Origin: a virus
Reading direction: 5' to 3' (one strand)
IMG/VR virus record: IMGVR_UViG_3300021368_000348
Coordinates: 1-58,187 of that record
Length of the DNA stretch: 58,187 nucleotides
Each line of letters begins with the position of its first letter. Position 1 is the first letter of the stretch. Shown in pieces: positions 4,654-25,137 of the stretch. Below the pieces are notes generated by a model, which did no database searches, was not told the DNA's origin, and saw only the letters and a program-made list of their open reading frames with translations. Made by a program: the position numbers and the translations under genes.

Positions 4654-6570
4654 ATGGCAATATCAACTTCAGATCTTGACTTCGCGAATATCAAAGCGAG
4701 GCTGAAGTCTCAACTCAAGAAAAACGACACCTTCAAGGACTACGACTTTGAAGCATCGGGTATGTCCACTATCCTTGATGTACTTGCGTACAACACTCAC
4801 ATCAATGGACTTGTGGCGAACATGGGAATCAACGAGGCGTTTTTGTCCTCTTCCCAGTTACGTGCCTCAGCGCTTTCTCATGCCGAGACCTTGGGTTATG
4901 TACCAAAGTCGTCATCGTGTCCAGTCGCAGAAATTTCTGCAGAGGTAGAGTTCAAGGACATCACGGACCCTGCCGTACTACCAGATTTTCTGATTATGCC
5001 AGAAGGTCAGGAGTTCACTGTATCGGTTGACGAAGTAGTGTATTCATTCTATACTACCGAAGAGTACATCGCACATAGACCGTCAGAACTACCGGATACA
5101 CTTCCGTTTACTGTAACCTATCAGTTCAAGTCAGCCGCGAGTAATCCAGTCATTAATTTGATACAGGGTGAGATTAAGAGTAAGACCTTTGTAGCAGGCG
5201 GACCACAAGATAACAATCTTTATATTTTACCAGACAAAGACCTAGATGTCAATACAATTACTGTAGAAGTCTACGATAACTTCTCTAGCACATCATCTGT
5301 CTCATACAAGAATCTAAACGAAGTACGTAACATCACGAAAGAATCACGCGTATACATGATACGCGAAACGTCGAACGGTGAATACGAAATGTTCTTCAGT
5401 GATGGTACCATATTGGGCACTGCACCGTCTGCAGGTAATAAGATTGTGGTATCGTATCGTGTGACTGCAGGAGAGGAGGCCAATGGTGGTGACCTATTCG
5501 CAACTACAGAGATTTACGAGGGTGGTAACTACCTAAACGTCAAAGTGATTCCAATCAGTCGCGCAGCGGGTGGTTCAGGTAAAGAGACACTATCCTCTAT
5601 CAAGAAGAATGCACCTCGTGCATTCGTTGCACAGAATCGCCTTGTTACTGCGGACGACTACCGTTCATTGATTCTGAATAACTTCGACTCGTACATCACC
5701 GACGTATCTGCATGGGGTGGTAACGATAACGTACCACCAGAGTATGGTAAGGTATTTGTCAGTATCAACTATGCAGACGGATTGAGCGACCTTGCCCAAG
5801 AGGATGTACAGGAGTCAATCCGTGAGCAGTTGACAAGTAACATTTCTATTATGTCAATTGATACTGAGTTTGTCAAACCTAATTTTACCAAGTTGGAGTT
5901 ACAGACGGTATTCCAGATAGACGCGACTAAGAACATCTCGACACTAGAGACATTGCAGAGTCGCGTTAACACCGTAGTAGAAGACTACGTCAAGAACGAA
6001 TTGAACGCTTTTGGTGCAACATTCCGTCGCTCTAATCTATTGACGCGTATCGACGCGTTGTCTCCAGCGATTCTTAACTCACGCATGACTGTCAAGATGC
6101 AGCAGACCATTCCAATCACACAGATGATTAGTGATGTGAACGGCATGTATCTTGCGGCGGGTTTGAGTGGAGTCGATTACTTAGACCAAGACTTCGAGGT
6201 AAAATATCCTACTATTATAGCTGAAGCGGACAACGACGAACACACAGTCATGTCTTCTGTCTTTAGGTCGAAAGGTAAGAACGTATACATTAGGAACCTT
6301 CTAGGTTCAACTAGACTACAGTTGGTAGACGTAAACGGTGTCTTAGTATTAGATAACATCGGTAGTTACGACCCAGCGAAGGGTTTGGTAAAACTGGTCG
6401 CGTTGTATGTCGATGGCGTTGGTTACGGTGGTGCTGGTATTAAGATTAGTGCAACACCAGCGAACCAGAGCACCATCCGTCCTCTACGTAACTACATTCT
6501 AAGTTTAGATTCATCGATGTCATTCGCACGTGGTACGATGGACGAAGGTGATATTAAGGTCACGTTATAA
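4654..6570 (+). CDS. gp6: Baseplate wedge subunit gp6
   Basis: A 638-aa homologue of T4 gp6 (660 aa), which dimerises to form the inner iris ring of the baseplate and contains a domain shared with the baseplate J family. The N-terminus (DFANIKARLKSQLKKNDTFKDYDFEASGMSTILDVLAYNTHINGL in pieces) is the canonical gp6 start: FxDYxFEgSgmstlLdlLaYNTHyna. The middle contains the J-like core (KKNAPRAFVAQNRLVTADDYRSLI, residues ~312-335), followed by a helical region and a beta-rich C-terminus. The start follows gp25 by one nucleotide, so the two are co-translated. Confidence 0.93.
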   Translation: MAISTSDLDFANIKARLKSQLKKNDTFKDYDFEASGMSTILDVLAYNTHINGLVANMGINEAFLSSSQLRASALSHAETLGYVPKSSSCPVAEISAEVEFKDITDPAVLPDFLIMPEGQEFTVSVDEVVYSFYTTEEYIAHRPSELPDTLPFTVTYQFKSAASNPVINLIQGEIKSKTFVAGGPQDNNLYILPDKDLDVNTITVEVYDNFSSTSSVSYKNLNEVRNITKESRVYMIRETSNGEYEMFFSDGTILGTAPSAGNKIVVSYRVTAGEEANGGDLFATTEIYEGGNYLNVKVIPISRAAGGSGKETLSSIKKNAPRAFVAQNRLVTADDYRSLILNNFDSYITDVSAWGGNDNVPPEYGKVFVSINYADGLSDLAQEDVQESIREQLTSNISIMSIDTEFVKPNFTKLELQTVFQIDATKNISTLETLQSRVNTVVEDYVKNELNAFGATFRRSNLLTRIDALSPAILNSRMTVKMQQTIPITQMISDVNGMYLAAGLSGVDYLDQDFEVKYPTIIAEADNDEHTVMSSVFRSKGKNVYIRNLLGSTRLQLVDVNGVLVLDNIGSYDPAKGLVKLVALYVDGVGYGGAGIKISATPANQSTIRPLRNYILSLDSSMSFARGTMDEGDIKVTL

Positions 6571-7532
6571 TGTCTAATCTGCAAGGTAGAGACAGATACC
6601 GCCCAGGCTTCCATAGCGCAGAAGTCGAATCGTTAGTACCCGCATTCTATAAAGAACAATACCCACTATTCATTGAGTTCTTAGAAACGTACTACGACCC
6701 GTCACTGTTCGATGGTATTTCATTCGAAGATATGATACATGAGTTGTTTCATGTACGCGACATCGCATCGGCTGATGCAGAAATCCTTGATAGGATATTT
6801 GCAGAGATTAGTGATGGACTAGAGTCAGAGTCGTTCCACTATAATCGTGACCCATACATGATGGTGCGTCTCTTGGCGAAGTTCTATCGCGCAAAGGGTA
6901 CAGAGATATCGGTTGACCAATTCTTCCTTGCGTTCTTCGACGAAGAGGTAGAAATCACCTACCCTAAAAAAGACATCTTTAAACTGAACGACAAGGTGGG
7001 TGGTTCTATTATCGGTCCTCAGAGTATGAAGTTTATACAGGACGACCGACGTTATCAGATTTTCTCAGTTCTTTTGAAAACAGGCATGTCTCTTGCAGAC
7101 TACGAACCAATCTACAAGAAGATGGTGCATCCGGCAGGATGGTATCTAGCTGCACAATTAGAAACACAGAGTGAGGCGCATCTTAATCTGAAGGCAGGTC
7201 CAACTGTAGACCCACTTGAAGTACCTAACTATCCGATTTTACTTGCATCTCATGTGGTTGACAAACTAGACCCACAGTACACTCTACTGGTTATGGAAGA
7301 GAACGACCCAGTAGATGCGCGTACGCAAGTAGAGAAAGACACTGGTGAAGGTATCTTAATCAGTTCGCTTGAGGTACTAGAGAAGTACGACGACATTACA
7401 CTACAACAGTTAGTAGACGACTTTGACACCATCGCAGCGTGGGTAAGTGTTAAGGCCGCGACAATCGACGACGACGGTGTTGACATGTCTCAAGACTACG
7501 AGACACTCGACGGTGGTGATGGTACAGGTTAA
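6570..7532 (+). CDS. Probable baseplate wedge-associated structural protein
   Basis: A 320-aa protein directly downstream of gp6 (TAATG overlap). The N-terminal ~190 residues are helical with a pattern familiar from marine T4-like genomes at this locus: YxEQYPLFIEFLETYYD, DIASADAEILDRIFAEISDGL, RLLAKFYRAKGTEISVDQFFLAFF, then a KMVHPAGWYLA block. The acidic C-terminus (residues ~230-320) appears disordered and aspartate-rich. Position between gp6 and gp8 is where T4 has gp7, but T4 gp7 is far larger (1,032 aa) and I see no specific match. I therefore call it a wedge-associated or adaptor protein for the following fibre genes, with its exact role unknown. Confidence 0.65.
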   Translation: MSNLQGRDRYRPGFHSAEVESLVPAFYKEQYPLFIEFLETYYDPSLFDGISFEDMIHELFHVRDIASADAEILDRIFAEISDGLESESFHYNRDPYMMVRLLAKFYRAKGTEISVDQFFLAFFDEEVEITYPKKDIFKLNDKVGGSIIGPQSMKFIQDDRRYQIFSVLLKTGMSLADYEPIYKKMVHPAGWYLAAQLETQSEAHLNLKAGPTVDPLEVPNYPILLASHVVDKLDPQYTLLVMEENDPVDARTQVEKDTGEGILISSLEVLEKYDDITLQQLVDDFDTIAAWVSVKAATIDDDGVDMSQDYETLDGGDGTG

Positions 7533-8836
7533 TGGTAACTGCAGACGATATCCTCAACCAGAATCCCAATGGGGAGCCGGTCAAGGTCTGGACGGGGAAA
7601 CAGAGTGAGTACGATGCACTGTCTCCGGACAGTGATACTGTATACTTTATATTAGCAGACCCACCACCAGAGGAAGAGTCTCCGTTTAGTTCTGGAAATA
7701 ACCCACTCATCCCAGGCGGTGGTGAAACTACGGGAGAACCAGAACCAGAACCGCAACCAGCTCCAGTCCCGTGGAGTGATGTCACTGCAGTGCAGGACGT
7801 TACGGTTACAGGTGGTCCTCGCACATTAGAACCATATAACCCAGATACCTTCACCCGTCTTGAAAACCACTCACTATGGGTTGCGTATTTCCCACGTCGA
7901 TTCACTATCGACACTACCTTTAATAGCGACGGTACATTCGAAACATTTGTGACTGACCGCTTCTTAGGTATCGGTGGGACTACCCCATTATTCTCTGGTA
8001 ACTGGAGAGACAGTGCAGTCCCAGAGGGTACTACCTATACATGCGGCATAGAACTAAACTCTCTGAATGGCATTCCGGTCACTCGCGATGACCGCACCTC
8101 TTTAGGGTATCATGCCAACGCGGAGTTGTTAGATGTCAATGGTGTAGATGTTACCGTCTTTCAGGGCGGTACCGTTATACAAACGGAAGTATCATCTACG
8201 GAAGGTGGTACGATTTCTGTTGCATTTGAAGAACACAGTGACTTGCAGAACCGCGAGCAAGATAGTATGCACCTAGACGCAACAGTTGTGTTGTCAGGTG
8301 TCGGGGCATTCAGTTTGTTCGTCACTGGTGTATTTGATGGTACCGAACCAAGCACACACACTCAAGAGTTTAATGTTATATTCGATATGGCGGGTGAGGG
8401 ACAAAAAGTATTACTCCCTTGGGCGCAGTCGGTACTTATCAATATCAATGATGAGTTCAGTGGTGACCCCGACCCACGCGTAGATTTTTACACACTTGAT
8501 GTTGCAAAACCAAAACAGTTTCATGACGGTGCAGACGCAATAGATGAGGTATTAGTAACCGCCCCGTCAGGTGTTGTTGAGTTTCACTTCATGCACTATA
8601 GTACCCTTACGCATACAGTGATGGTTGAGTTTGGTGCAGGGTGGAATGATTCAGGCTCTACTATAGCACTAACCCGTGGTCAGAGTTATCAGGCAACTGT
8701 TGGTGCAGGTGCAACAAATGGGCAGTTTCTTCCAGTCACAATATCCACTACTATAGGTGACCAGACATACACTAAAGAGGTTCCAGTTTCAGTATTTGTG
8801 TTTGATTTTAACTTCGACTTCGGTGGGGGTCGTTAA
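7532..8836 (+). CDS. Fibre/decoration protein with Ig-like module
   Basis: A 434-aa protein with three parts. Residues 1-42 contain VKVWTGKQSEYDAL...TVYFI, the short attachment motif common at the start of phage minor tail-fibre proteins. Residues ~43-82 are a proline/glutamate/glycine-rich linker. Residues ~83-434 are beta-rich and clearly paralogous to the last ~355 residues of the giant protein ending at 22242: both have PRTLExYNP near the start, DSxHL in the middle, KPxxFHDGA, and a terminal VTISxTIxxxxYTKEVPxxV. It overlaps the previous stop (TAATG). Probably a fibre or decoration protein displaying an Ig-like/beta-sandwich domain; the ligand is unknown. Confidence 0.65.
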   Translation: MVTADDILNQNPNGEPVKVWTGKQSEYDALSPDSDTVYFILADPPPEEESPFSSGNNPLIPGGGETTGEPEPEPQPAPVPWSDVTAVQDVTVTGGPRTLEPYNPDTFTRLENHSLWVAYFPRRFTIDTTFNSDGTFETFVTDRFLGIGGTTPLFSGNWRDSAVPEGTTYTCGIELNSLNGIPVTRDDRTSLGYHANAELLDVNGVDVTVFQGGTVIQTEVSSTEGGTISVAFEEHSDLQNREQDSMHLDATVVLSGVGAFSLFVTGVFDGTEPSTHTQEFNVIFDMAGEGQKVLLPWAQSVLININDEFSGDPDPRVDFYTLDVAKPKQFHDGADAIDEVLVTAPSGVVEFHFMHYSTLTHTVMVEFGAGWNDSGSTIALTRGQSYQATVGAGATNGQFLPVTISTTIGDQTYTKEVPVSVFVFDFNFDFGGGR

Positions 8837-8840
8837 ATCA

Positions 8841-8848
8841 TATAAATA
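8841..8848 (+). promoter_or_regulatory. T4-type late promoter (TATAAATA) for collagen-like fibre
   Basis: Exact TATAAATA in the 51-nt gap between the Ig-like protein and the collagen-like fibre, 40 nt before its ATG. Confidence 0.8.
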
Positions 8849-8887: not shown

Positions 8888-11800
8888 ATGTCAAGACAAA
8901 CACTTAATACTGGTGGAGCGGCGAACGATGGTCAGGGTGATACTCTCCGTCAGGCCAGTGAAAAAATTAATGCGAACTTTGAAGAACTGTATCAGTTAGT
9001 TGAAGTCAGTGGTGAAGGTGGAATCACTGCAGAATTTTTAAGTAGTTATGTCGATACGTCAGTCCAACAAAAGTTAGATGGTATCGAGTTAGATGATGTC
9101 ATCAACAATACTATAGCAATCAATACACTCGATGCTCGTGTTACTCAACACGATACCGCACTTACCCAATTACGAGATGACGTAGATAACGCCGTAGGTG
9201 GTCTAGGACCTCAAGGTCCGACAGGTCCACAGGGTGCACAAGGTCCTACAGGACATCAAGGTACTAAAGGTCAACAGGGCTCCATAGGTGGTCAAGGTAT
9301 TCTAGGTGGACAAGGTCCACTAGGCGGTCAGGGCACAATGGGTCCTATCGGACCACAAGGTGGACAAGGCGCACAAGGACAACAAGGTCTTCAAGGTAAC
9401 CCAGGCCCTATCGGTCCACAAGGTAACCAAGGTGTGCAAGGTATTCAAGGTCTACAGGGTAACCCTGGGCCTATCGGTCCACAGGGTAATCAGGGGGTTC
9501 AGGGTATTCAGGGTCTCCAAGGGAACCCAGGCCCTATTGGCCCACAGGGTAACCAAGGTGTGCAAGGTATTCAGGGTCTTCAAGGAAATCCTGGCCCAAT
9601 AGGACCTCAAGGTAATCAGGGGGTTCAGGGTATCCAAGGTTTGCAGGGTAATCCTGGCCCAATAGGACCTCAAGGTGTACAAGGTTCTCAAGGTATCACC
9701 GGATTGCAAGGTAACCCTGGCCCTATCGGTCCACAGGGTATCCAAGGTTCGCAGGGTGTTACTGGTCTTCAAGGAAACCCTGGCCCTATCGGTCCACAAG
9801 GTATTCAGGGTTCAACTGGTGTCACTGGTCTCCAAGGGAACCCAGGCCCAATAGGACCTCAAGGTATTCAGGGTTCAACTGGTGTTACTGGTATACAAGG
9901 TAACCCTGGCCCTATCGGTCCGCAAGGTTTGCAGGGTTCTCAGGGTGTTATTGGACTTCAGGGTAACCCTGGCCCTATCGGTTCGCAGGGTGCTCAAGGT
10001 TCTCAAGGTGTTCAAGGTCTTCAAGGAAACGCAGGTCCGATAGGACCACAAGGCGTACAAGGTTCGCAGGGTGTTACCGGACTTCAAGGTAATGCAGGAC
10101 CTATCGGACCACAGGGTGTACAAGGTTCTCAGGGTGTCACTGGTTTACAAGGTAACCCAGGCGAACAGGGTCCTCAAGGTGAACAGGGTTCTCAAGGTGT
10201 TGTTGGTATTCAAGGTAACCCTGGCCCAATTGGTTCTCAAGGTGCGACTGGACCACAAGGTATTCAAGGTCTGCAGGGTAATGCAGGTCCTATTGGTGCA
10301 CAAGGTTCTCAGGGTTCGCAAGGTTCTCAAGGTCTACAAGGTAACGCTGGACCGATTGGTCCACAGGGTTCAACTGGTGCGCAAGGTGTTACCGGATTGC
10401 AGGGTAATGCAGGACCTATCGGACCACAGGGTGTACAAGGTTCTCAGGGTGTTACCGGATTGCAGGGTAACGCGGGTCCAGTAGGACCGCAGGGTGTACA
10501 AGGTTCCCAAGGTGTTACCGGATTGCAGGGCAATGCAGGACCAGCGGGACCTCAAGGTGCACAAGGTTCTCAAGGTATCACTGGTATTCAAGGTAACATC
10601 GGACCAGCAGGACCACAAGGTTCTCAGGGTTCGCAGGGTGTTACTGGTCTACAGGGTAACATCGGACCAGCAGGTCCACAGGGCGCACAAGGTTCTCAGG
10701 GTGTTATCGGATTACAAGGTAATGCAGGCCCGTTGGGTGGACAAGGTCCAGTCGGTAATGCAGGACCAACAGGTATTCAAGGTAACATTGGTGCCGCAGG
10801 TCCACAAGGTGCACAAGGTTCTCAGGGCGTTAAAGGTTTACAAGGTTCTGTCGGTGAACAGGGTGCACAAGGTGAAAGAGGTGCACAGGGTGAACGTGGT
10901 CTGCAAGGTGCGATTGGTCCTATCGGTGCAACAGGTGAGGCAGGTCCACAGGGACCAGCAGGAACTACGCCAGGGCCACAGGGTCCTATCGGTAATACAG
11001 GTGAGCCTGGCCCGCAGGGTCCAGCAGGTACAACTCCTGGCCCACAAGGTCCACAAGGTTTACAAGGTGAACCTGGCCCGAAAGGTCAACAGGGTTCTAT
11101 TGGTCCAGTAGGTCCACAAGGACCGCAGGGTGTTCAAGGTATTCAAGGTACTACTGGTGCAATCGGTGCGCAGGGTGCTCAAGGTGCACAAGGTCAACAA
11201 GGTTTACAGGGTGCCATCGGTAACGCTGGACCGCAGGGTACAACTGGTTCGACTGGACCTCAAGGTCTACAAGGTCAAATTGGTAATGCGGGACCACAGG
11301 GACCACAAGGTAATCAAGGGGTCAAAGGTCTACAGGGTGCCATTGGTAACGCTGGACCTCAAGGACCACAAGGTGCGCAGGGCATACAAGGCCTACAGGG
11401 TGCCATTGGTAACGCTGGACCACAGGGTGCACAAGGTGCACAGGGTATCCAAGGTATCCAAGGACAAATTGGTAATGCTGGACCGCAGGGTGCGCAGGGT
11501 TCCCAAGGACAACGTGGTCTACAGGGACAAATCGGTAATGCAGGTCCACAGGGTGCGACAGGTTCAACTGGACCACAGGGTTTGCAGGGACAAATCGGTA
11601 ACGCTGGACCACAAGGTGCTACAGGTTCAACTGGACCGCAAGGTTTGCAGGGTCAGATAGGTAACGCTGGACCACAAGGCGCACAGGGCGCTCAAGGTAT
11701 CCAAGGTATCCAAGGACAAATCGGTAATGCTGGACCACAGGGTGCACAAGGTGCGCAGGGTCAAAGAGGTCTTCAAGGTCAGATAGGTAATGCAGGCCCT

Positions 11801-13132
11801 CAAGGACCACAAGGTGCACAGGGTATCCAAGGTATCCAAGGACAAATCGGTAACGCTGGACCACAGGGACCACAAGGTTCTCAAGGACAGCGTGGCCTGC
11901 AGGGACAAATAGGTAATGCCGGACCTCAAGGTGCAACGGGTGCTCAGGGTGTCCAAGGTCTGCAGGGTCAGATTGGTAACGCTGGACCACAGGGTGCAAC
12001 GGGTGCTCAGGGTGTCCAAGGTCTGCAGGGTCAGATTGGTAATGCCGGACCTCAAGGACCTCAAGGGTCTCAGGGACAAAGAGGTAACCAAGGTCAGATT
12101 GGTAACGCTGGACCACAGGGTCCTCAAGGTGCTCAGGGTGTCCAAGGTCTTCAAGGTCAGATAGGTAATGCCGGTCCACAGGGTGCACAAGGTGCACAGG
12201 GTGTCCAAGGTCTTCAAGGTCAGATTGGTAATGCAGGTCCGCAGGGTCCACAAGGTTCTCAGGGACAACGTGGTCTGCAGGGTCAGATTGGTAACGCTGG
12301 ACCACAGGGTCCTCAAGGTGCTCAGGGTGTCCAAGGTCTTCAAGGTCAGATAGGTAACGCTGGACCACAGGGCCCTCAAGGTTCTCAAGGACAACGTGGT
12401 CTGCAGGGTCAGATTGGTAATGCAGGTCCGCAGGGTCCTCAAGGTTCTCAAGGTGTCCAAGGTCTACAGGGACAAATAGGTAATGCCGGACCTCAAGGTG
12501 CACAGGGTTCTCAGGGTCAAAGAGGTCTTCAAGGTCAGACTGGTCCGGCGGGCGCACAGGGCGCGACAGGTTCAACTGGTGCTCAGGGTCAACAAGGTGC
12601 ATCGGGTGCGCGGGGTCAACAAGGTGCAACTGGACCAGACGGTGCAACTGGACCAAGAGGTAATACTGGTGCGGCGGGTGCACAAGGTGCAACGGGTCCA
12701 GCTGGTGCTCAGGGTATCCAAGGTGCAACTGGTGTTGCAGGTATTCAGGGTTCTCAGGGTCCGGTTGGTGGATTCGGTAACGCAGTTATATTTGATACAG
12801 GTACTACCCTACCGTCTAATATCAGCTCAACGGCGTCGGCACAGATACGAAGTTTCCGTACGCAAAACACTGTTTATGAAGGTGATATATATTGGCATAT
12901 CGGTACAGGACGAATCTATCGTTCAACTGAAAACCGTATCAACACTACGACGCCTGCGGCATTTACTGAGATAACAGACGGCGACCGTGTTACTGCATCA
13001 AGTGTTGCGGGATTAATCGACCTAAGTGCGATTCTAAATACTGCTGATACTGGTGACCGAATCGAGTTCAAACGCACTCGAATTGATATCTACGAAGGTT
13101 CTTCACGTCGTGTAAGATTAGGAGAACTATAA
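8888..13132 (+). CDS. Collagen-like tail fibre (Gly-X-Y)n
   Basis: A 1,414-aa fibre. Residues 1-~100 are an attachment/coiled-coil head ([18 protein letters not shown] then [13 protein letters not shown], a standard phage fibre N-terminus). Residues ~104-1295 are nearly uninterrupted Gly-X-Y triplets in 21-residue units: early units read NPGPIGPQG-xxG-xxG-xxG-LQG, later ones QIGNAGPQG-xxG-xxG-xxG-xQG. Two GTTP insertions break the triplet register (nt ~10966 and ~11029). Many Y-position prolines are present (GNP, GEP). The C-terminal ~115 residues form a globular tip ending in [17 protein letters not shown], a motif shared with the fibre ending at 24234 and resembling the ends of lambda J-type host-specificity proteins. 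Expected to form a collagen triple-helix rod. Downstream lie an oxygenase and a glycosyltransferase that could modify it. Confidence 0.92.
9199..12774 (+). repeat. 63-bp tandem repeats encoding collagen-like Gly-X-Y units
   Basis: About 3.6 kb of direct repeats with a 63-nt period (21 residues, seven Gly-X-Y triplets), internally also 9-nt periodic. Synonymous positions vary a lot (GGT/GGA/GGC; CAA/CAG; CCA/CCT/CCG), while glycine at every third residue is kept. Confidence 0.92.
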
Positions 13133-13147
13133 CCAACAGGATATATT

Positions 13148-13702
13148 ATGTTTGCAATTGTTGATGACTTCTACGCTGATCCCGATTCAGTTCGGGATTA
13201 TGCGTTGAGTCAAGAGTTTACTATAACAGGCAACTACCCCGGCCTACGCACGACACCGTGCAATAATGAGGGTGGATACATCGACGGTCTAATAGAAAGT
13301 TTTCAAAACATCATAGGGAAGACTATCACACATTTCCCGTTAGACCAGTACAATACGTCCTTTCAATATACAACTGCAGAGTCCAAGACGTGGATACATC
13401 ATGATGCCATGTCTTACGCTGCAGTTTTATATCTCACACCGAACGCACCTCTCGATGCAGGTACCGCAATTTATCGACATAGGTTGACAGGAATCATGCG
13501 TCACAATAGTGCGTGTCCGGTAGACTTTAATGAGTTTCAGTTGATTGAAGATGATTGGGATATTGTGGCAGAGGCAAAAAATGTTTATAATAGACTTGTA
13601 ATTTACGACGCAATGTATTATCATAGAAGCGTTGTACCTGGCTTCGGCACCAATCAATACGACGGACGACTGTTTCAAACATTCTTCTTCGAGGCAGAAT
13701 AA
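13148..13702 (+). CDS. 2OG-Fe(II) oxygenase-like protein (DUF6445-type), prolyl-hydroxylase-like
   Basis: A 184-aa protein with the layout of a compact double-stranded beta-helix 2-oxoglutarate/Fe(II) dioxygenase. The metal and co-substrate ligands are visible: HxD at His84-Asp86 (in WIHHDAM), distal His159 (MYYHRS) and Arg174 (YDGRLFQTFFF) for 2-oxoglutarate. The opening (DDFYADPDSVRDYALSQ) is the usual start of this family. Enzymes of this fold hydroxylate protein side chains or small molecules. It begins 15 nt after the collagen-like fibre with its own AGGA Shine-Dalgarno (13137-13140) and overlaps the glycosyltransferase that follows. The neighbourhood suggests it hydroxylates the fibre, perhaps proline or another residue; that substrate is inference. 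Confidence 0.75.
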   Translation: MFAIVDDFYADPDSVRDYALSQEFTITGNYPGLRTTPCNNEGGYIDGLIESFQNIIGKTITHFPLDQYNTSFQYTTAESKTWIHHDAMSYAAVLYLTPNAPLDAGTAIYRHRLTGIMRHNSACPVDFNEFQLIEDDWDIVAEAKNVYNRLVIYDAMYYHRSVVPGFGTNQYDGRLFQTFFFEAE

Positions 13703-14583
13703 TGAAACTAATGACAACGCTGTTGACATCGAACGATGTCCCGAAGTTGCACCGTCTCATTAAATCCGTTGAGGGCGTAATACGAATCGAACCTATTGAG
13801 TGGGAAGTTGTTATTGTGGTCAACAGCATCCACGAAGGGTACTACGAACAGGTCCTTGAACTCGACCAACCATTTCGTGTCGTCAATACAGAGAGTAACG
13901 GTAAACCAGGCCGAGGGAAGAATGCATGTCTTGATGTATTCCTAGAGAGTGATGCAGACTTTGTTTCCCAGATTGACGGTGATGACTTCCTCTATCCATC
14001 ATATCTACAGTCTCTATACAATCACATCAAACATTATCCCAATATAGATGTTCTAGGTGTTGTCCCATGTGACTGTATATGCAACTTTGCGTTGGAGTCT
14101 GGACACTATTGGTGGGTTAACGATAAATATCACGCGAGTGTGTGGGGTACGTCTATGTGTCCCCCTAGTCCCAATATGGGACCTCAGAAGAGTCACCTAT
14201 TCATTGACGAACGTCCAGTGTCGGTAGACTTCATCATGCTGCAGAGCAGAAAGTCTGCACAGTTGAAAATGAATGAAAACATAGGTAATGGTGAAGACCA
14301 CGCATACACTTATAAATTATTAGGTGAACACCAACAAGGTAACTTGCAATACTTTTTGTCTATGTCAAGTGATATGTACTGTATCGATAGAACAACCGAA
14401 GGGAGTGCACAGAAAGTCCATTCGTACGATGATTACCTTGAACCAATGCGACAAGAAGCCCTACGTCATGTACCAGAATGGCGCAGCAGTCCCTATGAGT
14501 TGCCAGTGATATACAAGAAACTATTGATGAACCAATTCCAAAAAGAAAATTGGTTAAACGATTTTGTAAATCGGTTCGATTAA
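13702..14583 (+). CDS. GT-A-fold glycosyltransferase (GT2-like), fibre-linked
   Basis: A 293-aa protein with a family-2-type nucleotide-sugar transferase pattern: N-terminal beta-alpha-beta (MTTLLTSNDVPKLHRLIKSV...WEVVIVVNS), the segment ESNGKPGRGKN (64-74) and the metal-binding DGDD at residues 92-95 within SQIDGDDFLYP. A paralogue starts at 24238 with the same ESxG..xGKN and IDGDD blocks. No membrane segment is seen, so it should be a soluble cytoplasmic enzyme. It overlaps the oxygenase stop (TAATG) and closes the collagen-fibre operon before the next late promoter. Donor sugar and acceptor are unknown; the adjacent fibre is the obvious candidate acceptor. Confidence 0.8.
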   Translation: MKLMTTLLTSNDVPKLHRLIKSVEGVIRIEPIEWEVVIVVNSIHEGYYEQVLELDQPFRVVNTESNGKPGRGKNACLDVFLESDADFVSQIDGDDFLYPSYLQSLYNHIKHYPNIDVLGVVPCDCICNFALESGHYWWVNDKYHASVWGTSMCPPSPNMGPQKSHLFIDERPVSVDFIMLQSRKSAQLKMNENIGNGEDHAYTYKLLGEHQQGNLQYFLSMSSDMYCIDRTTEGSAQKVHSYDDYLEPMRQEALRHVPEWRSSPYELPVIYKKLLMNQFQKENWLNDFVNRFD

Positions 14584-14587
14584 AACG

Positions 14588-14595
14588 TATAAATA
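14588..14595 (+). promoter_or_regulatory. T4-type late promoter (TATAAATA) for gp8
   Basis: Exact TATAAATA 5 nt after the glycosyltransferase stop and 32 nt ahead of the gp8 ATG. AGGAA near 14614 supplies the Shine-Dalgarno. Confidence 0.8.
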
Positions 14596-14626: not shown

Positions 14627-16069
14627 ATGCCAGCAATAGTAAGACAACCAATGAGTAGGAGTCTTGCGAATGACCTATTGACTGATTTGAAATCATTATC
14701 AAGTCACTATTACATAGGCATCGCGAAGTCAGACGTATTCAACCCATTGGACACAGTAGTTGACCCAATCGATTCACCACGTGAAGAGCGAGAGTTTAGA
14801 AATAACTTGCAGTCGATTAAGAGAATCGAAGATGCGAGTATGGTAGCAAAGAGAGTAGATTGGTCATATGGAACTCGATACTCTGGTTGGGACGACTCAA
14901 TATCGTCTGACATCGTAGAGCCATGGACTCCGTGGTATGTGATGAATGACGCTAAGGAAGTTTACATCTGTCTCGTTAACCCATTAGATGAAACTGGAGC
15001 TCCACGTGCATCAACCATTGAACCTAACTATGGTCTACATGCACCGATGAGTCCGGAGACAGACCCAGATGCACCGATGTTCGGTATGAAGGAGTGGTGG
15101 AAGCCATTCACTCTTGCAGACGGTTATACTTGGCAGTTCCTTTACTCACTAACTCCAGAGCGCATTTTTCAGTTCCTATCATCTAACCACATCCCAGTTC
15201 AAGAAGCGGAGCCATCTCTTCCTGTTGGTGACTCTATCGAAGACTTACAGTGGCATGTAAAGAATGAGGCAATCGGTGGTCAGATTCTATCTATCAAGGT
15301 AATTAAGAACGGGTCTGGTTTTTCTCAGGATGCAGTGCCACCAGTATACATCTATGGTGATGGTACGGGCGCATCTGCGACTGCACACGTTAGCACCAAT
15401 GGGCAAGTTGTTAAGATAACAATGGACGACTTCGGTTCAGGTTACTCTTATGCAAATGTTGTTGTGGGTGATGACACATCAAATTGTTCTGCACGTCCAG
15501 TAATCACATCCAAGAACGGTATTGGTTATAACCCTATAGATGATTTGAAAACAAGTTCGGTCATGTGCAACATTAAACCAGACGGTACCGTTGACGACAC
15601 ATTTATTGTACGCAACACTTTCCGTCAGATTGGTTTAATCAAGGCACCAGATACAACACTAACTGAGTCAGACGGTACTCCGATACCATTCACTGGTCTT
15701 TCAGCGAAGGTACTTAATCAGATGACTTTGTTGAATAGTGCACCATTTGAGAAGGGTGGGTTAATCACTGGTTCATTGTCAGGTGCACAGGCGTGGGTAG
15801 ATGATGTAGATGGTCTAGTTGTATATTACCATCAAAACGAGTCTACCGGATTTAAACCGTTTATTGAATACCAAAACCCGAATGACCCAACATCTCAAGG
15901 TGAGCCTGTCGTACAGGATGGTCTGATTCTAACGGGTCAAATTGATACTCTTGCTCCATCCGTTGACATGGACCGTTTTTCTGGTGAAGTTCTATATATT
16001 GAGAACCGTGCACGAATTCGCAGAGACGAAGAGCAGCAGGAAGATATTAAGATTGTAATCACTGTTTAG
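14627..16069 (+). CDS. gp8: Baseplate wedge subunit gp8
   Basis: A 480-aa relative of T4 gp8 (334 aa), a dimeric wedge protein bound by gp10/gp7. Recognisable parts are the start (IVRQPMSRSLANDLLTDL, SHYYIGIAKSD), the tryptophan-rich KxWxPWYVMND region, WKPFTLADGYTWQFLYSLTPE (residues ~164-184), and the terminal RARIRRDEEQQEDIKIVI, which is very characteristic of gp8 in marine T4-like phages. The extra length lies in the middle, a glycine-rich beta segment (residues ~220-300, GSGFSxDAVPPVYIYGDGTGA) also typical of the cyanophage version. Confidence 0.88.
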   Translation: MPAIVRQPMSRSLANDLLTDLKSLSSHYYIGIAKSDVFNPLDTVVDPIDSPREEREFRNNLQSIKRIEDASMVAKRVDWSYGTRYSGWDDSISSDIVEPWTPWYVMNDAKEVYICLVNPLDETGAPRASTIEPNYGLHAPMSPETDPDAPMFGMKEWWKPFTLADGYTWQFLYSLTPERIFQFLSSNHIPVQEAEPSLPVGDSIEDLQWHVKNEAIGGQILSIKVIKNGSGFSQDAVPPVYIYGDGTGASATAHVSTNGQVVKITMDDFGSGYSYANVVVGDDTSNCSARPVITSKNGIGYNPIDDLKTSSVMCNIKPDGTVDDTFIVRNTFRQIGLIKAPDTTLTESDGTPIPFTGLSAKVLNQMTLLNSAPFEKGGLITGSLSGAQAWVDDVDGLVVYYHQNESTGFKPFIEYQNPNDPTSQGEPVVQDGLILTGQIDTLAPSVDMDRFSGEVLYIENRARIRRDEEQQEDIKIVITV

Positions 16070-16077
16070 GATTGATC

Positions 16078-19000
16078 ATGTCAGACACATTTAACAATAA
16101 AACGTTTCGAGAGACTTACCGCGACTACTACAATCCTGAAGACGGTTATCATCGTGTTCTTTATAAATCAGGTCGTGCACTACAGGCTCGCGAATTAATC
16201 GAAGGGCAGACAATCATCCAAGAGGAGATTGCGCGTTTCGGTCGTAACATATTCAAGGAAGGCGCATTAGTTAACTCTGGTGGCGCTACCGTCAATAATA
16301 AATTAGAGTACATCACTCTTGCACCGCAGAGTGTATTTGACACTATCATTTCTGGTAAAGAACTGACAAACGGTACGGTCAAGTTTAAGGTCATTGAGAT
16401 GTATGATGTTGCGGGAGAAGACCCAGCAACACTGTACGTGCAGTACACAGACACAAGTGCAGTTACCGACAACTCTGTCCCACCACGTGTCTCCGCAGGA
16501 GACCAACTATCATACGCAGACGGCACTGCAGGTGTTGCGATGGTTGTTGGTGATGTGTTCACCAAAGATGGAAAAAGTATTCAACCAGTAGGTCGTGGTA
16601 CTAAGGCACACTTCGCCGCAGGTGACTTCTTTGTACAGGGTCACTTCGTATATATGAAGGGTGGCAGTGCATTCATCAACAAGTACAGCGACAAACCAAC
16701 CCTTGACTTTGGTTTTAAGATTGAACAGTCAATCGTCACTGCAAGTGAAGATTTCCAACTGTATGATAATCAGGGTGAGGTGCCAGACCGTACAGCCCCA
16801 GGCGCAGACCGATACAAGATTGAGCTGACTCCAAGTTCACGTGATGAGGCTGGAGTAGATAACTTTGTATTTGTTGTTCGCATTGTAGAGGGTATTGTTA
16901 CTCGTGAAGTCGGTGCATTCGATGCATACAACGAAATCAATAACCTACTTGCACAACGAACCAAAGAGGAATCGGGTGATTACGTCGTTGAAGGTTTCAC
17001 TGCAATCACCGAAAATAAAGACGATAACTTTATCACACTGAACGTCACTGAAGGTATCGCCTATGTTGACGGTTACCGCTTGGAAATTGGTTCCACACCT
17101 ATTGATGTACCTAAAGCGAACACTGCAGTTGTTAAGACTTCAGAACCAGTACCGGCTGTGTATGGTAACTGGTGTTATGCAGACCTAACTGCATCAACAT
17201 CTCAGGGACTAGGTCGTCCACATGTTGGTGGATACCTTTCATTAAAGAATTCAAGTGGTGCGACAATTGGTTTCGCAAACATTCGTGGTGTACAACCTGA
17301 AGGTGCGCGTTATCGCGTATACCTATTCAACATTCGAATGAACACGGGTCGTGCATTCAATGACGTTACATCTATGATTGACCCACTGCAGACTGAAACA
17401 AGCACCATACCATTATTACTTGATAGTAATACAGGTAAGAACCTTGGGTTATATGGTACTGCGGACAACAACTTATTATTCCCTCTACCACAGAAGAGTC
17501 CATCTGCCGACAGTATTCAAACTGCATCGTTCACTATTCAGAAGTACCACGACATTCCAAGTGATGGTTCGGGTACATTTACTCGTGCAGGCGTTGAGTA
17601 TTCACAATGGATTGTGGCGCAGAAAGACGGTCCGGTTGTTTATCCAACAGCGCCAGAGACTGCAGACGCACCATTGGCGGTTAACTCTAACGGTATTATC
17701 AGTAATCTAAATCCAACTAAAGACCACGTACTATTAAGCTACGAAGAGGTCACTGGTGGATTCAAGACTAAGACATTAAAGAACGGTACTCACACACAAA
17801 ACATTACTTCGGTTGACCAACAGGCACGTCCAATCGCATTGGGTGAAGTAGATGGTGTGAAGATTAATTCAGTCAAGTTATTAGACACTTCACAATCTAA
17901 TAACATTGCGGATGCAGAAGACATCACTCACCAGTTTACACTAGACGGTGGACAGCGTGATAACTTCTATGATGTTGCGAAGGCATACCTAAAAGACGGA
18001 TACTTACTACCACACGGTACAATACAGGTCATCGTTGATTTCGATTACTTCGAACACTCGGCCGCGGGTCGTTTCTATTGTGCAACATCATACACTAATG
18101 TTGAATACGACGAAATTCCAAATTACACTTTCTCAGGTGGTTCATCAATATCTTTGCGTGATGTACTAGACTTCCGTCCAGTACGTAAACCAGACGCATT
18201 GAACGAATTCACCATGAGTGAACTACCACAGAATGCATCTGCGGTTAGTATTACTGAGGTGTCCTACTACCTACCACGTATCGACATGCTAGTCGCAAAC
18301 TCCGTGGACAGTCGAGGTGACATCGGTTTCGGTGAGTTACAGGTCATTCAGGGGCAACCAGCAGAATACCCACGTGAGCCAGAGATTCCAAGTGGCGCAC
18401 TTTCTCTGTACAAGATACGACTAAACCCATACACGTTTGGTACTGAAGATGTCATCACGACAAACATCAGCAACAAGCGATACACTATGAAAGACATCGG
18501 TAAGATGTCCACTCGTATCAATAACCTATTTGAGTTGACCACGTTGAGTTTCCTAGAACTTAACACCAACACTTTAACTGTGTTGGATGCGGACGGTCTT
18601 GCACGTACAAAGGCAGGATTTATCGCGGACAACTTCACCGACTTCTCATTCTCTGACATCCAGAATGATAACTATCGTGCATCCCTAGACGCGGGTAACA
18701 ACCTAAGAGCGTCATTCCGTATGCAGTCGGTACGTTTACAGTACGCAAACACTAACCCAACTTCTGTTAAAAACGCAGATGTTGCAACTCTAAAGTACAC
18801 TAACGTACCTATGGTTGAGCAGTTACTTGCAACAGATGCAATGAACGTCAACCCATTCGCAGTTATCACCCAACAGGGTCACATCACACTATCACCGGCA
18901 AGTGATGAGTGGGTGGAGACTCGTACCCTACCGGCTCCAGTACAACAATTCATCCGTCCTTGGGAGGACCTATGGATTGTAGAAGACCGACGCGAAAGTG

Positions 19001-22000
19001 AATGGTTCGGTCAGGGTGAACTAACATGGATGACGGTCAACTGGAACCTAAACTTTAACGAGGCGTGGTTACCAATACAAAACATGATGGGCGGACGAAT
19101 CGCAGACATCGAGATTATACCGTTCATGCGTTCACGCCGTATAGCCTTTGCCGCTCGTGGACTACGTCCAAACGCAAACATCTTCGCGTTCTTCGACGGT
19201 GTTGATGTGAGTGATTGGGTACGTCAAGAGTCTGCAGAGATTAGTTTCTCCAATGACCCAGCAGAGATTGGTTCACAGTTTGCGAACGCAACTGAATACC
19301 CAACTGCACTTGGTGGTAAGAGCGAACTAATGACTGACTCAAAGGGTGAGTTACTTGGTTCATTCTTCTTACCTAACACAGGTGCGATTCAGTTCAGAAC
19401 AGGTTCACAAGAATTTACTTTGATGGATGTAGACAGTGGTATACAGGACGATGCGTTGACTTTCGCATCTACTATGTATACGTCAAGCGGTTCATTAGTG
19501 ACTCGCTTCGAACCACCATTCCGTCAGTTCGACCCATTGGCACAATCTTTCTTCATCGACCAAATCGAGAATCCATACGGTGTATTCATTACAGGCGCGA
19601 ACATATTCATGGCGTCAAAGGATTCACAGATTCCTCTACAGGTACAGATTCGTCCAGTAGAGAACGGTGTACCACAGGAACGTGCAATTGTAGGGTCAAC
19701 TAAGTTTATCAACCCAGAGGACGTTGTTGTCACTCCGTTCACTGAAGACACAGATATCGTAACTGTACAGGCTGCACCAACACGAGTAGATTTCAATCAA
19801 CCAATCTACCTAGAGCCATCTAAGTCTTACGCGATTGTTCTACTTGCAGACAGTACAGAGTACACTGCATACACTGCGCAAACTTATCAGTATGTTCTAG
19901 GACCAAGTCGTGATACTTTGGTATCAAAGCAACCAACTCTAGGTTCTCTATTCCTATCGCAGAACGGTTCGACTTGGACTCCAGACCAAACACGTGACCT
20001 TATGTTCACACTGGACCGTGCAGAGTTTGAAGAGACTGGTACTGTTCTACTTGAGAATACCGTACTACCTAATGTTATGCTCAACGCAGACCCATTCGAA
20101 ACATTCGCGAATGACACTCTAGTCTTTGTAAATCACGAAGGCCACGGTTTTGTATCGGGTGACGAAGTAGTTATCCAAGGTGTGACTGGCGGTGTAAGTG
20201 GTAACGAAGCTGAAGACTTGAACGGCACATTCCAAGTGGTAGAACCACGTTGGAACGGTTATAAGATTAATACACAGAATGCACCTACTGGCGCATCCGT
20301 TGGTGGTGGTTCCGGTGTGGTTGTATCGCAACAGGTCATGTACGACCAATTCGTACCACAGATTCAGAATACTATCCCACGCGGAACTGGTATCACTACA
20401 GTCGCACGATTGACTGAAGGTTCATCATACGGTTCAGGTCGAACTTTGTCAAGTAACGCATACGTCACCAAGACGACAACTGCATTCTTGAATGACTTAA
20501 ACATCAACGAATCGCCAAAGGTTGTTGCATCAAGTGAGCAGGTCAATGGAGCGAAGACTCTGGCGATGGAACTAAACTTGAATGCGAGTGATGACCGAAA
20601 GGTATCTCCAATCATCGACCTACAACGTTCATCTGTTCTTGCACTAGAAAACGTTATCGATGATGCGAACGCCGCGCAACATATCACTATCCCGATTGCG
20701 ATATCAGAGTCGTCGGTAGGATTGAAGATTATCTTCGCAGCTAACAAACCGTCAGTTGCAGACTTCGAGGTATACACCAAGACTGCAGTTGATGAAGACG
20801 CATTGTCTGCAACAGATGACAATGGTGACCCATTGGTCGATTGGGTACAGGCAGATATAGACTTTGCAGTACCAAGTGACGATAACCCAACAATCTTCCG
20901 TGACCATGAATATACGATTGAGTCAGACCCTTTCTCTGTATTCCAGATTAAGATTGTTATGAAAACAAGTAACACATCTAAGACTCCAGTCGTACGCGAC
21001 CTACGTGCAATCGCGTTGGTAACTCCGTATGGCGGTGGTGGCGGTTCAAGCAGTAGTACCACTAACACAAGTAGCGGTACCGGCGGTACCGGAGAAGACA
21101 CTGGTGATGGCAACGGAAGTGATACTGGTAGCGGTACCGGAGGAGACGACCCATCACCATCTGCGACTGCATTCACAGATATAACATCGTTACCAGCGAC
21201 GTTAAATATTACAGGCTCTCCACGAACGCTTGAGGGATATAATCCAGAACAGGACACTAATCAATACGGAGAGTCTTGGAGATATTGGCACGATGAAGGT
21301 CGTTTGTTGAGATTGGCTATTCGGTTCCAACCATCTGGTGATTTCCAACTTGTTACCAATACTAACAGGACAGCCGAAACGGTCGTTGGTGCAGATTACA
21401 TAGACCAATTCACCGTTCTTGCAACGGGTAAATGGTTAGACCGCCCTGTCGTTGATGGAGAAACCTTTGAATGTGGTATGGAAATTGTCGAGGTTGATGG
21501 TCAGTCGGTTTCGTTCCGTCCAAATAATACGGTAGATGACCCACACCCAGAATTAAGAAATGTTGGAACGGGTGCGGACCTTGGTCATGACCCTGTGGTT
21601 TCAAAAACTGTTGACCATGACACTAACTGGGGCGCACACGGGTTTTTCATCACTGAACACAGCACTTGGATTGAAGACGGAAAACCGTCTTCGTGGGATT
21701 CACTTCACCTAAACCCTGCGCAAGATATCACAGGTTCATTCAAGATGAATTTGTTTGTCAGGGGAGACAACGTCACCGACGTTACTACAGCGCCTATCGA
21801 GGTAAATTATACTCTACAGGGTGAGGCGCAAGTGGACGACTCTCAAGGGTCGCCGTTAGTAATAGTAGGAGTAAGCGATAGAACAGGAGAAGACCCAGAC
21901 CCAATCATTGCATCCTATGCATTAAGTGTATGGAAGCCTAGAACATTCCATGACGGCGCTACACTATCAGACCAGACACTTGAAGTAGAGAGCGGTGCAA

Positions 22001-22242
22001 CTGTTGATTTCCACATGACTTGGGGGTCTACTGACGGACAAACCGTAACGGTCGTACCAAATGGAACATGGGACGAGGCGGGTCAATCAATAACTGTTAA
22101 CCGTGGTGATTTCGTACAACTAAATGTATCGGATACTGCACAGATAGGAGATGATGCAAGCGTAACAGTGAGCGCCACTATATCAGGAGTACAGTATACT
22201 AAAGAAGTGCCAATTCTGGTTATCTCCGGTGGTATAGGTTAA
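16078..22242 (+). CDS. Giant DUF4815-type tail/baseplate protein with C-terminal Ig-like graft
   Basis: About 2,054 residues. The N-terminus (FRETYRDYYNPEDGYHRVLYKSGRALQ, then ARELIEGQTIIQEEIARFG) is the DUF4815 signature found in large tail proteins of marine T4-like phages, placed just after gp8 where T4 encodes gp9/gp10. A long beta-rich middle follows. Near residues ~1650-1700 (nt ~21030-21170) there is a Gly/Ser/Thr/Asp-rich flexible linker, then a ~355-residue module paralogous to the C-terminal part of the protein at 7532-8836. The start is ATG 16078; an in-frame TTG at 16072 gives only two more residues and lacks support. Likely a baseplate-periphery or fibre-connector protein; the exact T4 counterpart is uncertain. 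Confidence 0.78.
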   Translation: MSDTFNNKTFRETYRDYYNPEDGYHRVLYKSGRALQARELIEGQTIIQEEIARFGRNIFKEGALVNSGGATVNNKLEYITLAPQSVFDTIISGKELTNGTVKFKVIEMYDVAGEDPATLYVQYTDTSAVTDNSVPPRVSAGDQLSYADGTAGVAMVVGDVFTKDGKSIQPVGRGTKAHFAAGDFFVQGHFVYMKGGSAFINKYSDKPTLDFGFKIEQSIVTASEDFQLYDNQGEVPDRTAPGADRYKIELTPSSRDEAGVDNFVFVVRIVEGIVTREVGAFDAYNEINNLLAQRTKEESGDYVVEGFTAITENKDDNFITLNVTEGIAYVDGYRLEIGSTPIDVPKANTAVVKTSEPVPAVYGNWCYADLTASTSQGLGRPHVGGYLSLKNSSGATIGFANIRGVQPEGARYRVYLFNIRMNTGRAFNDVTSMIDPLQTETSTIPLLLDSNTGKNLGLYGTADNNLLFPLPQKSPSADSIQTASFTIQKYHDIPSDGSGTFTRAGVEYSQWIVAQKDGPVVYPTAPETADAPLAVNSNGIISNLNPTKDHVLLSYEEVTGGFKTKTLKNGTHTQNITSVDQQARPIALGEVDGVKINSVKLLDTSQSNNIADAEDITHQFTLDGGQRDNFYDVAKAYLKDGYLLPHGTIQVIVDFDYFEHSAAGRFYCATSYTNVEYDEIPNYTFSGGSSISLRDVLDFRPVRKPDALNEFTMSELPQNASAVSITEVSYYLPRIDMLVANSVDSRGDIGFGELQVIQGQPAEYPREPEIPSGALSLYKIRLNPYTFGTEDVITTNISNKRYTMKDIGKMSTRINNLFELTTLSFLELNTNTLTVLDADGLARTKAGFIADNFTDFSFSDIQNDNYRASLDAGNNLRASFRMQSVRLQYANTNPTSVKNADVATLKYTNVPMVEQLLATDAMNVNPFAVITQQGHITLSPASDEWVETRTLPAPVQQFIRPWEDLWIVEDRRESEWFGQGELTWMTVNWNLNFNEAWLPIQNMMGGRIADIEIIPFMRSRRIAFAARGLRPNANIFAFFDGVDVSDWVRQESAEISFSNDPAEIGSQFANATEYPTALGGKSELMTDSKGELLGSFFLPNTGAIQFRTGSQEFTLMDVDSGIQDDALTFASTMYTSSGSLVTRFEPPFRQFDPLAQSFFIDQIENPYGVFITGANIFMASKDSQIPLQVQIRPVENGVPQERAIVGSTKFINPEDVVVTPFTEDTDIVTVQAAPTRVDFNQPIYLEPSKSYAIVLLADSTEYTAYTAQTYQYVLGPSRDTLVSKQPTLGSLFLSQNGSTWTPDQTRDLMFTLDRAEFEETGTVLLENTVLPNVMLNADPFETFANDTLVFVNHEGHGFVSGDEVVIQGVTGGVSGNEAEDLNGTFQVVEPRWNGYKINTQNAPTGASVGGGSGVVVSQQVMYDQFVPQIQNTIPRGTGITTVARLTEGSSYGSGRTLSSNAYVTKTTTAFLNDLNINESPKVVASSEQVNGAKTLAMELNLNASDDRKVSPIIDLQRSSVLALENVIDDANAAQHITIPIAISESSVGLKIIFAANKPSVADFEVYTKTAVDEDALSATDDNGDPLVDWVQADIDFAVPSDDNPTIFRDHEYTIESDPFSVFQIKIVMKTSNTSKTPVVRDLRAIALVTPYGGGGGSSSSTTNTSSGTGGTGEDTGDGNGSDTGSGTGGDDPSPSATAFTDITSLPATLNITGSPRTLEGYNPEQDTNQYGESWRYWHDEGRLLRLAIRFQPSGDFQLVTNTNRTAETVVGADYIDQFTVLATGKWLDRPVVDGETFECGMEIVEVDGQSVSFRPNNTVDDPHPELRNVGTGADLGHDPVVSKTVDHDTNWGAHGFFITEHSTWIEDGKPSSWDSLHLNPAQDITGSFKMNLFVRGDNVTDVTTAPIEVNYTLQGEAQVDDSQGSPLVIVGVSDRTGEDPDPIIASYALSVWKPRTFHDGATLSDQTLEVESGATVDFHMTWGSTDGQTVTVVPNGTWDEAGQSITVNRGDFVQLNVSDTAQIGDDASVTVSATISGVQYTKEVPILVISGGIG

Positions 22243-24237: not shown

Positions 24238-25137
24238 ATGTTTTATGTTTTATCTAGCCACAATATTTATGCACTCAAGCGACAGTTTAAAACACTACCA
24301 ATAGATAAGACGACAGTAATAATAAATACGACTCACGATGAGTTTCGTGAACATGCGATAGCTTATTGTGAGGAAAATAAAGTTCGTTATTTCGTAACAG
24401 AGAGTGATGGCACTGCTGCCACGGGAAAGAATAGTTTTCTTGACCGATTTGATGAAGATGGTGTACCATATGCAGTGTTGATAGATGGTGATGATTACCT
24501 CACTAAACGTGGAGTGGTCATGTATCAACGTCTAGTAGAACGAGAAGATGTACCAGACGCTTTAGTGTTGTTTAATCAGGTCAATATAACTGAAACGAGA
24601 CATGACCGTGTAGAAAGAAGTCAAGACCCGATTAGACCACACGAAGACCCTACTAAGTTGACCTCTCGATATATACAGTCATCGGCAGTCGCAGACTGGA
24701 ACGAGTTGGCTAAAGGTTTTTTGGTTGCGGATAATGTACCGGACATTACTGTAGAAGAAGTAGAGATGTTTAAAAAATATATCTCAACTCTTCAACATTC
24801 AATGGGTATAGATGAGTTAAGTACTCGACTTGTGTTTATGTCAAGAAAGGTTTTACCCTACAGATTCAATAAAGGTTTGACGGTAGGAGAGGATACTCTT
24901 CAATATCTTGAACTAAAAGATGCACATGAACGTGGTGAACTAAAATTGGCTGCGCATAATGAAAAGTTCCCGACATATATGTACGATGTACGTATATCAG
25001 GCATTGCATTAAAAGAAAGTCAAAAGGACCAAGGTAAAGGGTTCATTAACTGGATGAAAATTCTTTTGGCAGAAATGGATTGTCTAAAAGATAATAATAA
25101 GTTACACAAAACACGTGTACCAATATTGGAGTTTTAA
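24238..25137 (+). CDS. GT-A-fold glycosyltransferase, paralogue of 13702-14583
   Basis: A 299-aa protein with the same blocks as the earlier enzyme: an N-terminal Rossmann-like half (FYVLSSHNIYALKRQF, TTVIINTTHDEF), ESDGTAATGKNSFLDRF (55-71) and IDGDDYLTKRG with DGDD at residues 83-86. The rest has diverged, including a helical C-terminal half. It starts 3 nt after the fibre with the shared C-terminal motif and abuts the next gene (stop at 25137, ATG at 25138). No transmembrane segment is seen. Acceptor unknown; the flanking fibre or the DYGL proteins are candidates. Confidence 0.78.
   Translation: MFYVLSSHNIYALKRQFKTLPIDKTTVIINTTHDEFREHAIAYCEENKVRYFVTESDGTAATGKNSFLDRFDEDGVPYAVLIDGDDYLTKRGVVMYQRLVEREDVPDALVLFNQVNITETRHDRVERSQDPIRPHEDPTKLTSRYIQSSAVADWNELAKGFLVADNVPDITVEEVEMFKKYISTLQHSMGIDELSTRLVFMSRKVLPYRFNKGLTVGEDTLQYLELKDAHERGELKLAAHNEKFPTYMYDVRISGIALKESQKDQGKGFINWMKILLAEMDCLKDNNKLHKTRVPILEF

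Follow-up and report, generated by a model that had tools for sequence, protein, structure and literature searches.

The window analysed here is a 58,187-nucleotide stretch of IMG/VR virus record IMGVR_UViG_3300021368_000348, which comes from a T4-like marine phage. Between its genes for the baseplate wedge proteins gpX and gp8 (the gpX-gp8 slot) lie three adjacent genes on the plus strand, encoding a collagen-like fibre, a 2-oxoglutarate (2OG)-Fe(II) oxygenase of the DUF6445 family and a glycosyltransferase (GT) of family GT2 (Table 1). The original prediction, made from the letters of the window, described them as a possible collagen-maturation operon in which the enzymes would hydroxylate and glycosylate the fibre. 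Its gene order and spacing are exact: 15 nucleotides (nt) separate the fibre stop from the oxygenase ATG, and the GT start shares 1 nt with the oxygenase stop. Its single late promoter for all three genes also agrees with the motifs, although promoter function is inferred. The window contains 13 copies of the T4-type late motif TATAAATA, where 1.7 would be expected. The motif stands on both flanks of the three-gene unit, while a motif scan of the window found none between the three genes.

Table 1. Features of the gpX-gp8 slot and its borders, in window coordinates (aa, amino acids; ORF, open reading frame)
Feature	Position	Strand	Evidence or remark
Baseplate wedge protein gpX (PF23786)	6570..7532	+	Pfam; upstream border of slot
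T4-type late promoter motif TATAAATA	8841..8848	+	Upstream of fibre; position consistent, function putative
Collagen-like fibre, 1414 aa	8888..13132	+	ORF, Pfam Collagen, triplet count
DUF6445 (PF20043, PHROG 1644) 2OG-Fe(II) oxygenase, 184 aa	13148..13702	+	Pfam, PHROG, AlphaFold2 model
GT2 family glycosyltransferase, 293 aa	13702..14583	+	Pfam Glycos_transf_2; DGDD motif aa 92-95
Next late promoter motif TATAAATA	14588..14595	+	Closes the unit, ahead of gp8
Baseplate wedge gp8 homologue	14627..16069	+	PHROG 438, E=5.5e-70; downstream border of slot

The fibre begins with a gp9/10-like N-terminus (aa 3-37; 24 bits in Pfam, slightly under the 25-bit cut-off) and ends in a short tip whose last residues are RVRLGEL. 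Its rod (aa 104-1299) contains 398 Gly-X-Y triplets, divided by single residues into runs of 197, 7 and 194, and matches Pfam Collagen at E=3.9e-175. These are the long uninterrupted repeats expected of a collagen triple helix; in 1,000 residue shuffles, the longest Gly-X-Y run never exceeded 10. The rod DNA repeats on a 63-nt unit, equal to 21 residues or 7 triplets. Gln is the dominant Y residue (225/398) and Lys takes only 4 Y positions. The rod had been predicted to carry Y-position prolines, and it does, but they are rare: proline lies chiefly in X (102/398), and only 14 of the triplets have it in Y, 12 of these being GNP.

The oxygenase scores 48.8 bits against the DUF6445 model (cut-off 24). 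Its His84-x-Asp86, His159 and Arg174, predicted to be intact, are invariant in alignments of 16 and of 76 relatives and supply the HxD...H metal triad and the 2OG-binding Arg that characterise the 2OG-Fe(II) oxygenase superfamily. An AlphaFold2 model from the 76-sequence alignment has the double-stranded beta-helix fold with a predicted local distance difference test (pLDDT) score of 95.3; it was used in place of a poor single-sequence model (pLDDT 43.6). Searching the PDB with the sequence gave no match, and searching by structure gave OGFOD1 (Z 14.1), PHD2 (Z 14.0) and the Pseudomonas putida prolyl hydroxylase (P4H; Z 13.8), followed by an algal P4H (Z 12.8) and many other solved 2OG oxygenases. 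PHROG 1644 is labelled 'minor coat protein'. We set this label aside for the window gene, and it is probably a misannotation, since this protein clearly has the fold and active site of a 2OG oxygenase. DUF6445 is a family without known function, and our literature search turned up no paper on it.

The predicted GT-A glycosyltransferase does overlap the oxygenase gene, and its sequence places it in GT2 (Glycos_transf_2, E=6.5e-9, 36.4 bits, cut-off 23.3) with an invariant DxD-type motif, D92-G93-D94-D95. The collagen galactosyltransferase family Glyco_transf_25 (PF01755) has no match in this protein. A second, diverged GT2-like protein (24238-25137, 299 aa) also has a DGDD motif and resembles the first (hhalign probability 95.9), while Pfam and PHROGs do not recognise it; GT matches are also present in several relatives, about as far downstream of gp8.

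For comparison, loci were drawn from IMG/VR by anchoring on gp8 and dereplicated at 97% gp8 identity (L numbers are our locus labels). Among complete slots, 21 have a collagen fibre and an enzyme gene and nine have neither, with no slot of either mixed type (Fisher p = 7e-8, kinship between loci ignored). When partial slots are included, there are 26 with collagen and enzyme, none with collagen without enzyme, two with enzyme without collagen and 17 with neither; in both exceptions the contig end falls inside the slot. Non-collagen slots hold structural ORFs only. In the reading frames inspected, the fibre alleles resemble one another at the start (xSRxILNTGxxANDGxGDxLR) and at the end (RVKxGxL), so collagen and non-collagen alleles would differ largely in the rod. 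All 21 complete collagen slots have the motif TATAAATA 40-48 nt ahead of gp8, and in the fibre-oxygenase-GT class it never lies between collagen and enzymes.

The enzymes themselves vary. Collagen slots contain DUF6445 with GT2, DUF6445 alone, 2OG-FeII_Oxy_4 (another 2OG family) with an MptE-like/methyltransferase protein, the MptE-like protein alone, or Capsule_synth, and these sets are exchanged on near-identical backbones. We take PF01973 to include Maf-type flagellin glycosylation proteins and PF05159 to include KpsC/KpsS transferases. The gp8 tree shows at least 12 changes of slot state, some of them between close neighbours (L004 and L249/L246, L063 and L209, L038 and L250, L202 and L204). 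Divergence is lower in the oxygenase and GT (0.25 and 0.19) than in gp8 and gpX (0.41 and 0.42), and the enzyme distances follow those of gp8 weakly (rho 0.47 and 0.23, against 0.89 for gp8 and gpX), as would fit a cassette moving between phages. We consider it likely that 8888-14583 is such an exchangeable, mobile cassette for maturation of the collagen fibre.

Movement and weak tracking of the backbone would also be expected if the oxygenase and GT were selfish or moron genes, merely hitchhiking with a transferred collagen allele. We find this very improbable: beside other collagen alleles the same place is taken by unrelated enzymes whose functional kinds are similar, no non-collagen allele has acquired a hitchhiker, and both enzymes are under strong purifying selection, with ratios of nonsynonymous to synonymous divergence (dN/dS) of 0.06-0.12 where dS is computable.

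Linkage of such enzymes to collagen is also found outside the slot. Two loci with a siphophage-type tail module (L068 and L067) have oxygenase-GT-oxygenase and then a Gly-X-Y protein, and their relatives L162-L166 retain two oxygenases and the collagen, with no GT. Collagen, DUF6445 and a further oxygenase occur together in L109 and L115, and the L109 collagen cluster includes Glyco_transf_25, one protein there having GT4, GT25 and OGFOD2-like domains. Relatives of the 2OG-FeII_Oxy_4 enzyme of L238 are present in seven loci, with collagen upstream in six; the seventh is cut at its start. At L282 (79-7630), a 1946-aa tail-tip-like protein with a C-terminal collagen domain is followed by 2OG-FeII_Oxy_4 and Capsule_synth genes, apparently the same enzyme kinds recombined in a different phage type.

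Bacterial chromosomes provide further cases. DUF6445 is found near genes for collagen-like proteins with 76-100% Y-Gln in Pandoraea (L286-L297), Roseateles (Roseateles terrae, L291) and Massilia (Massilia frigida, L330); the Paraburkholderia locus (Paraburkholderia ribeironis, L285) has no collagen ORF on its short contig. Collagen lies within 6 kb in 12 of the 16 closest cellular DUF6445 loci and in none of 43 distant ones (p = 1.6e-9, relatedness ignored). Most of the bacterial clusters read also contain a PP-loop protein, which is ATP-binding, and a radical SAM protein, and the small Gly-X-Gln proteins in those read have a common N-terminus of the type LxLNxxQIxxIxxxTGQxxxxIRVV. By gene content, these clusters look like peptide modification systems acting on a collagen-like precursor.

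The enzymes could instead act on the host surface or on another component of the phage, with modification of lipopolysaccharide that keeps other phages out as one example; the fibre would then lie next to them as part of a hypervariable host-recognition island. Glycosyltransferases in the host-recognition cluster of pelagimyophages have been interpreted as O-chain modifiers (PMC7029224), and PF05159 is named for capsule synthesis. However, the non-collagen fibres of the same slot have no such gene (0/9 against 21/21 complete slots), the enzymes sit in one late-promoter unit with the fibre, and the collagen linkage recurs in unrelated phages and in bacteria, so we regard this explanation as improbable.

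The composition of the rods also differs with the enzyme set. DUF6445-linked rods and rods with other enzymes do not overlap in X-Ala (.10-.40 against.005-.034), X-Thr (0-.063 against.107-.362) or Y-Arg (0-.078 against.123-.234), which fits enzymes specific for their own rod, although co-transfer of neighbours could yield the same split. All 13 complete fibre-oxygenase-GT rods have 44-60% Y-Gln and 7.5-15% X-Asn, the latter at a modal spacing of 7 triplets, and these are their least variable features. One or two Asn at that spacing are found in L238, L249, L264 and L250. Y-Pro makes up 0-8% in all DUF6445-linked T4-like rods, and the siphophage rods of L163 and L068 have ~1% proline in X and Y together.

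These values bear on the classical model of a collagen prolyl 4-hydroxylase, by which the oxygenase would make 4-hydroxyproline at Y-Pro and the GT would glycosylate hydroxyproline or hydroxylysine. The oxygenase fold is nearest to prolyl hydroxylases (OGFOD1, PHD2 and P4H), the first half of the window rod does contain Y-prolines, and in synthetic peptides the Bacillus anthracis P4H hydroxylates proline at both X and Y (PMC8968730). However, enzymes acting on other substrates, hygromycin and lysine among them, share the likeness to the PHD2 fold, and the abundant Y-Pro that such an enzyme would need in its partner collagen is missing from the window rod, from the DUF6445-linked T4-like rods and from those of L163 and L068. 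We therefore think the model quite improbable, and classical Y-prolyl hydroxylation unlikely as the main job of the oxygenase; as the common denominator of these systems, rod composition rules it out. Better candidates for the residue hit would be Y-Gln, the 21-residue-periodic X-Asn or X-Pro. X-Asn was rejected as a universal target: it is absent from siphophage and Burkholderiales rods and holds only in the T4-like fibre-oxygenase-GT clade.

Action of the enzymes on the collagen rod is strongly supported by comparison, because of the slot contrast, the swaps of unrelated enzymes, the tracking of rod composition and the independent linkages. The enzyme-collagen link of the original prediction thus holds up, while its emphasis on Y-proline does not. 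Going by these comparisons, such phages probably add hydroxyl groups and sugars to their own collagen, as happens in animals, but the classical proline would not be the main site.

Several observations count against the cassette interpretation. The slot loci are related, and a strict phylogenetic pairs test has only four independent pairs (4/4 concordant, p=0.125), so the Fisher p overstates independence. The alternative enzyme classes were recognised after inspection of the slots, and the PF05159 and MptE-like genes are tied to glycosylation by family only. Siphophage rods are without Asn and Pro, and neither residue suits all rods. Remote DUF6445 genes of cyanophages are placed in sugar clusters or in arrays of oxygenases, and most of the genomes concerned lack collagen; two cyanophages have collagen without DUF6445. 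Finally, a clade about 50% identical to the window oxygenase (L088-L107) has no collagen inside 8 kb and, where read, mostly adjoins replication genes.

We rejected the general rule that every DUF6445 is accompanied by collagen: among cyanophage isolates, collagen occurs in 4/17 with DUF6445 (one a weak hit) and in 2/9 without (p=1). Where a closer DUF6445 had no collagen gene nearer than 8 kb, collagen was encoded elsewhere on 13 of 16 large contigs, against 3 of 31 mixed control records, a comparison that is supportive but confounded by phage group. The survey of co-occurrence that had been proposed as a check is thus positive in the slot, in siphophages and in bacteria, and negative for remote cyanophage DUF6445; judged from these genomes, the association is a property of DUF6445 proteins near that of the window and not of the whole family.

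As to mechanism, we infer that the rod is the substrate, and likewise the reaction order and the benefit. The fibre would be anchored in the baseplate wedge through its gp9/10-like N-terminus, the co-transcribed oxygenase would hydroxylate positions in the Gly-X-Y rod, with the nascent or unfolded chain as its most plausible target, and the GT2 enzyme would put a sugar on the rod, either at the new hydroxyl or at a side chain such as Thr. As a result, the virion would carry a glycosylated collagen fibre that is stabilised or shielded. A more specific proposal, which we hold as tentative and rather doubtful, is that the DUF6445 proteins closest to the window's are an unrecognised class of collagen-rod hydroxylases with Y-Gln and/or X-Asn, not Pro/Lys, as main target. 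The class would then occur in phages with or without a following GT and in the bacterial radical SAM cluster with its Gly-X-Gln protein, and its reaction would be new collagen modification chemistry.

If the cassette interpretation is right, tailed phages bear swappable collagen-maturation cassettes, a class of substrates can be assigned to DUF6445, and compact enzymes compatible with bacteria become available for producing collagen that is hydroxylated and glycosylated. Paired alleles, with or without collagen and with the oxygenase alone or with the GT, allow the part played by each enzyme to be tested directly.

By analogy, the nearest precedent would be mimivirus L230, a collagen lysyl hydroxylase/glucosyltransferase that acts on the virus's own collagen-like proteins (PMC9614988). 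Both systems pair a virus-encoded 2OG hydroxylase with a glycosyltransferase, here known from gene association alone. In L230 both activities reside in a single protein, which belongs to a eukaryotic virus, is related to PLOD1 and GLT25D1, hydroxylates Lys and adds Glc (PMC9614988), whereas the phage cassette has two separate small proteins of other families (DUF6445 and GT2) in one operon with the fibre of a tailed bacteriophage, and a rod with just those 4 Y-Lys in 398 triplets.

Bacillus BclA is likewise a glycosylated prokaryotic collagen-like surface fibre from a species whose P4H is active on collagen peptides (PMC8968730). It differs in being a cellular spore protein, its P4H is of the same fold class but another family than DUF6445, and modification of phage fibres is absent from that account (PMC8968730). 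The Escherichia coli prophage fibres EPclA-D are phage tail-fibre collagens that are also X-Pro rich and Y-Pro poor; recombinant EPclA had no glycosylation, bacteria and viruses are said there to be without prolyl hydroxylases for Y-position proline, and phage collagens have so far been regarded as unmodified (PMC3368898). Our literature search for a phage collagen hydroxylase found no report. T4-like cyanophage DUF6445 proteins (PHROG 1644) have the Pfam family and catalytic residues in common with the window oxygenase, but are 24-37% identical over most of the length and lie in the other contexts described above.

Elsewhere in the window, a 1566-aa protein (26947-31647) has no Pfam or PHROG match at E 0.01. 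The ORF directly preceding the fibre gene (7532-8836) encodes 434 aa, of which a 366-residue region is shared at 32% identity with the C-terminus of a 2056-aa protein (16072-22242), an apparent duplication.

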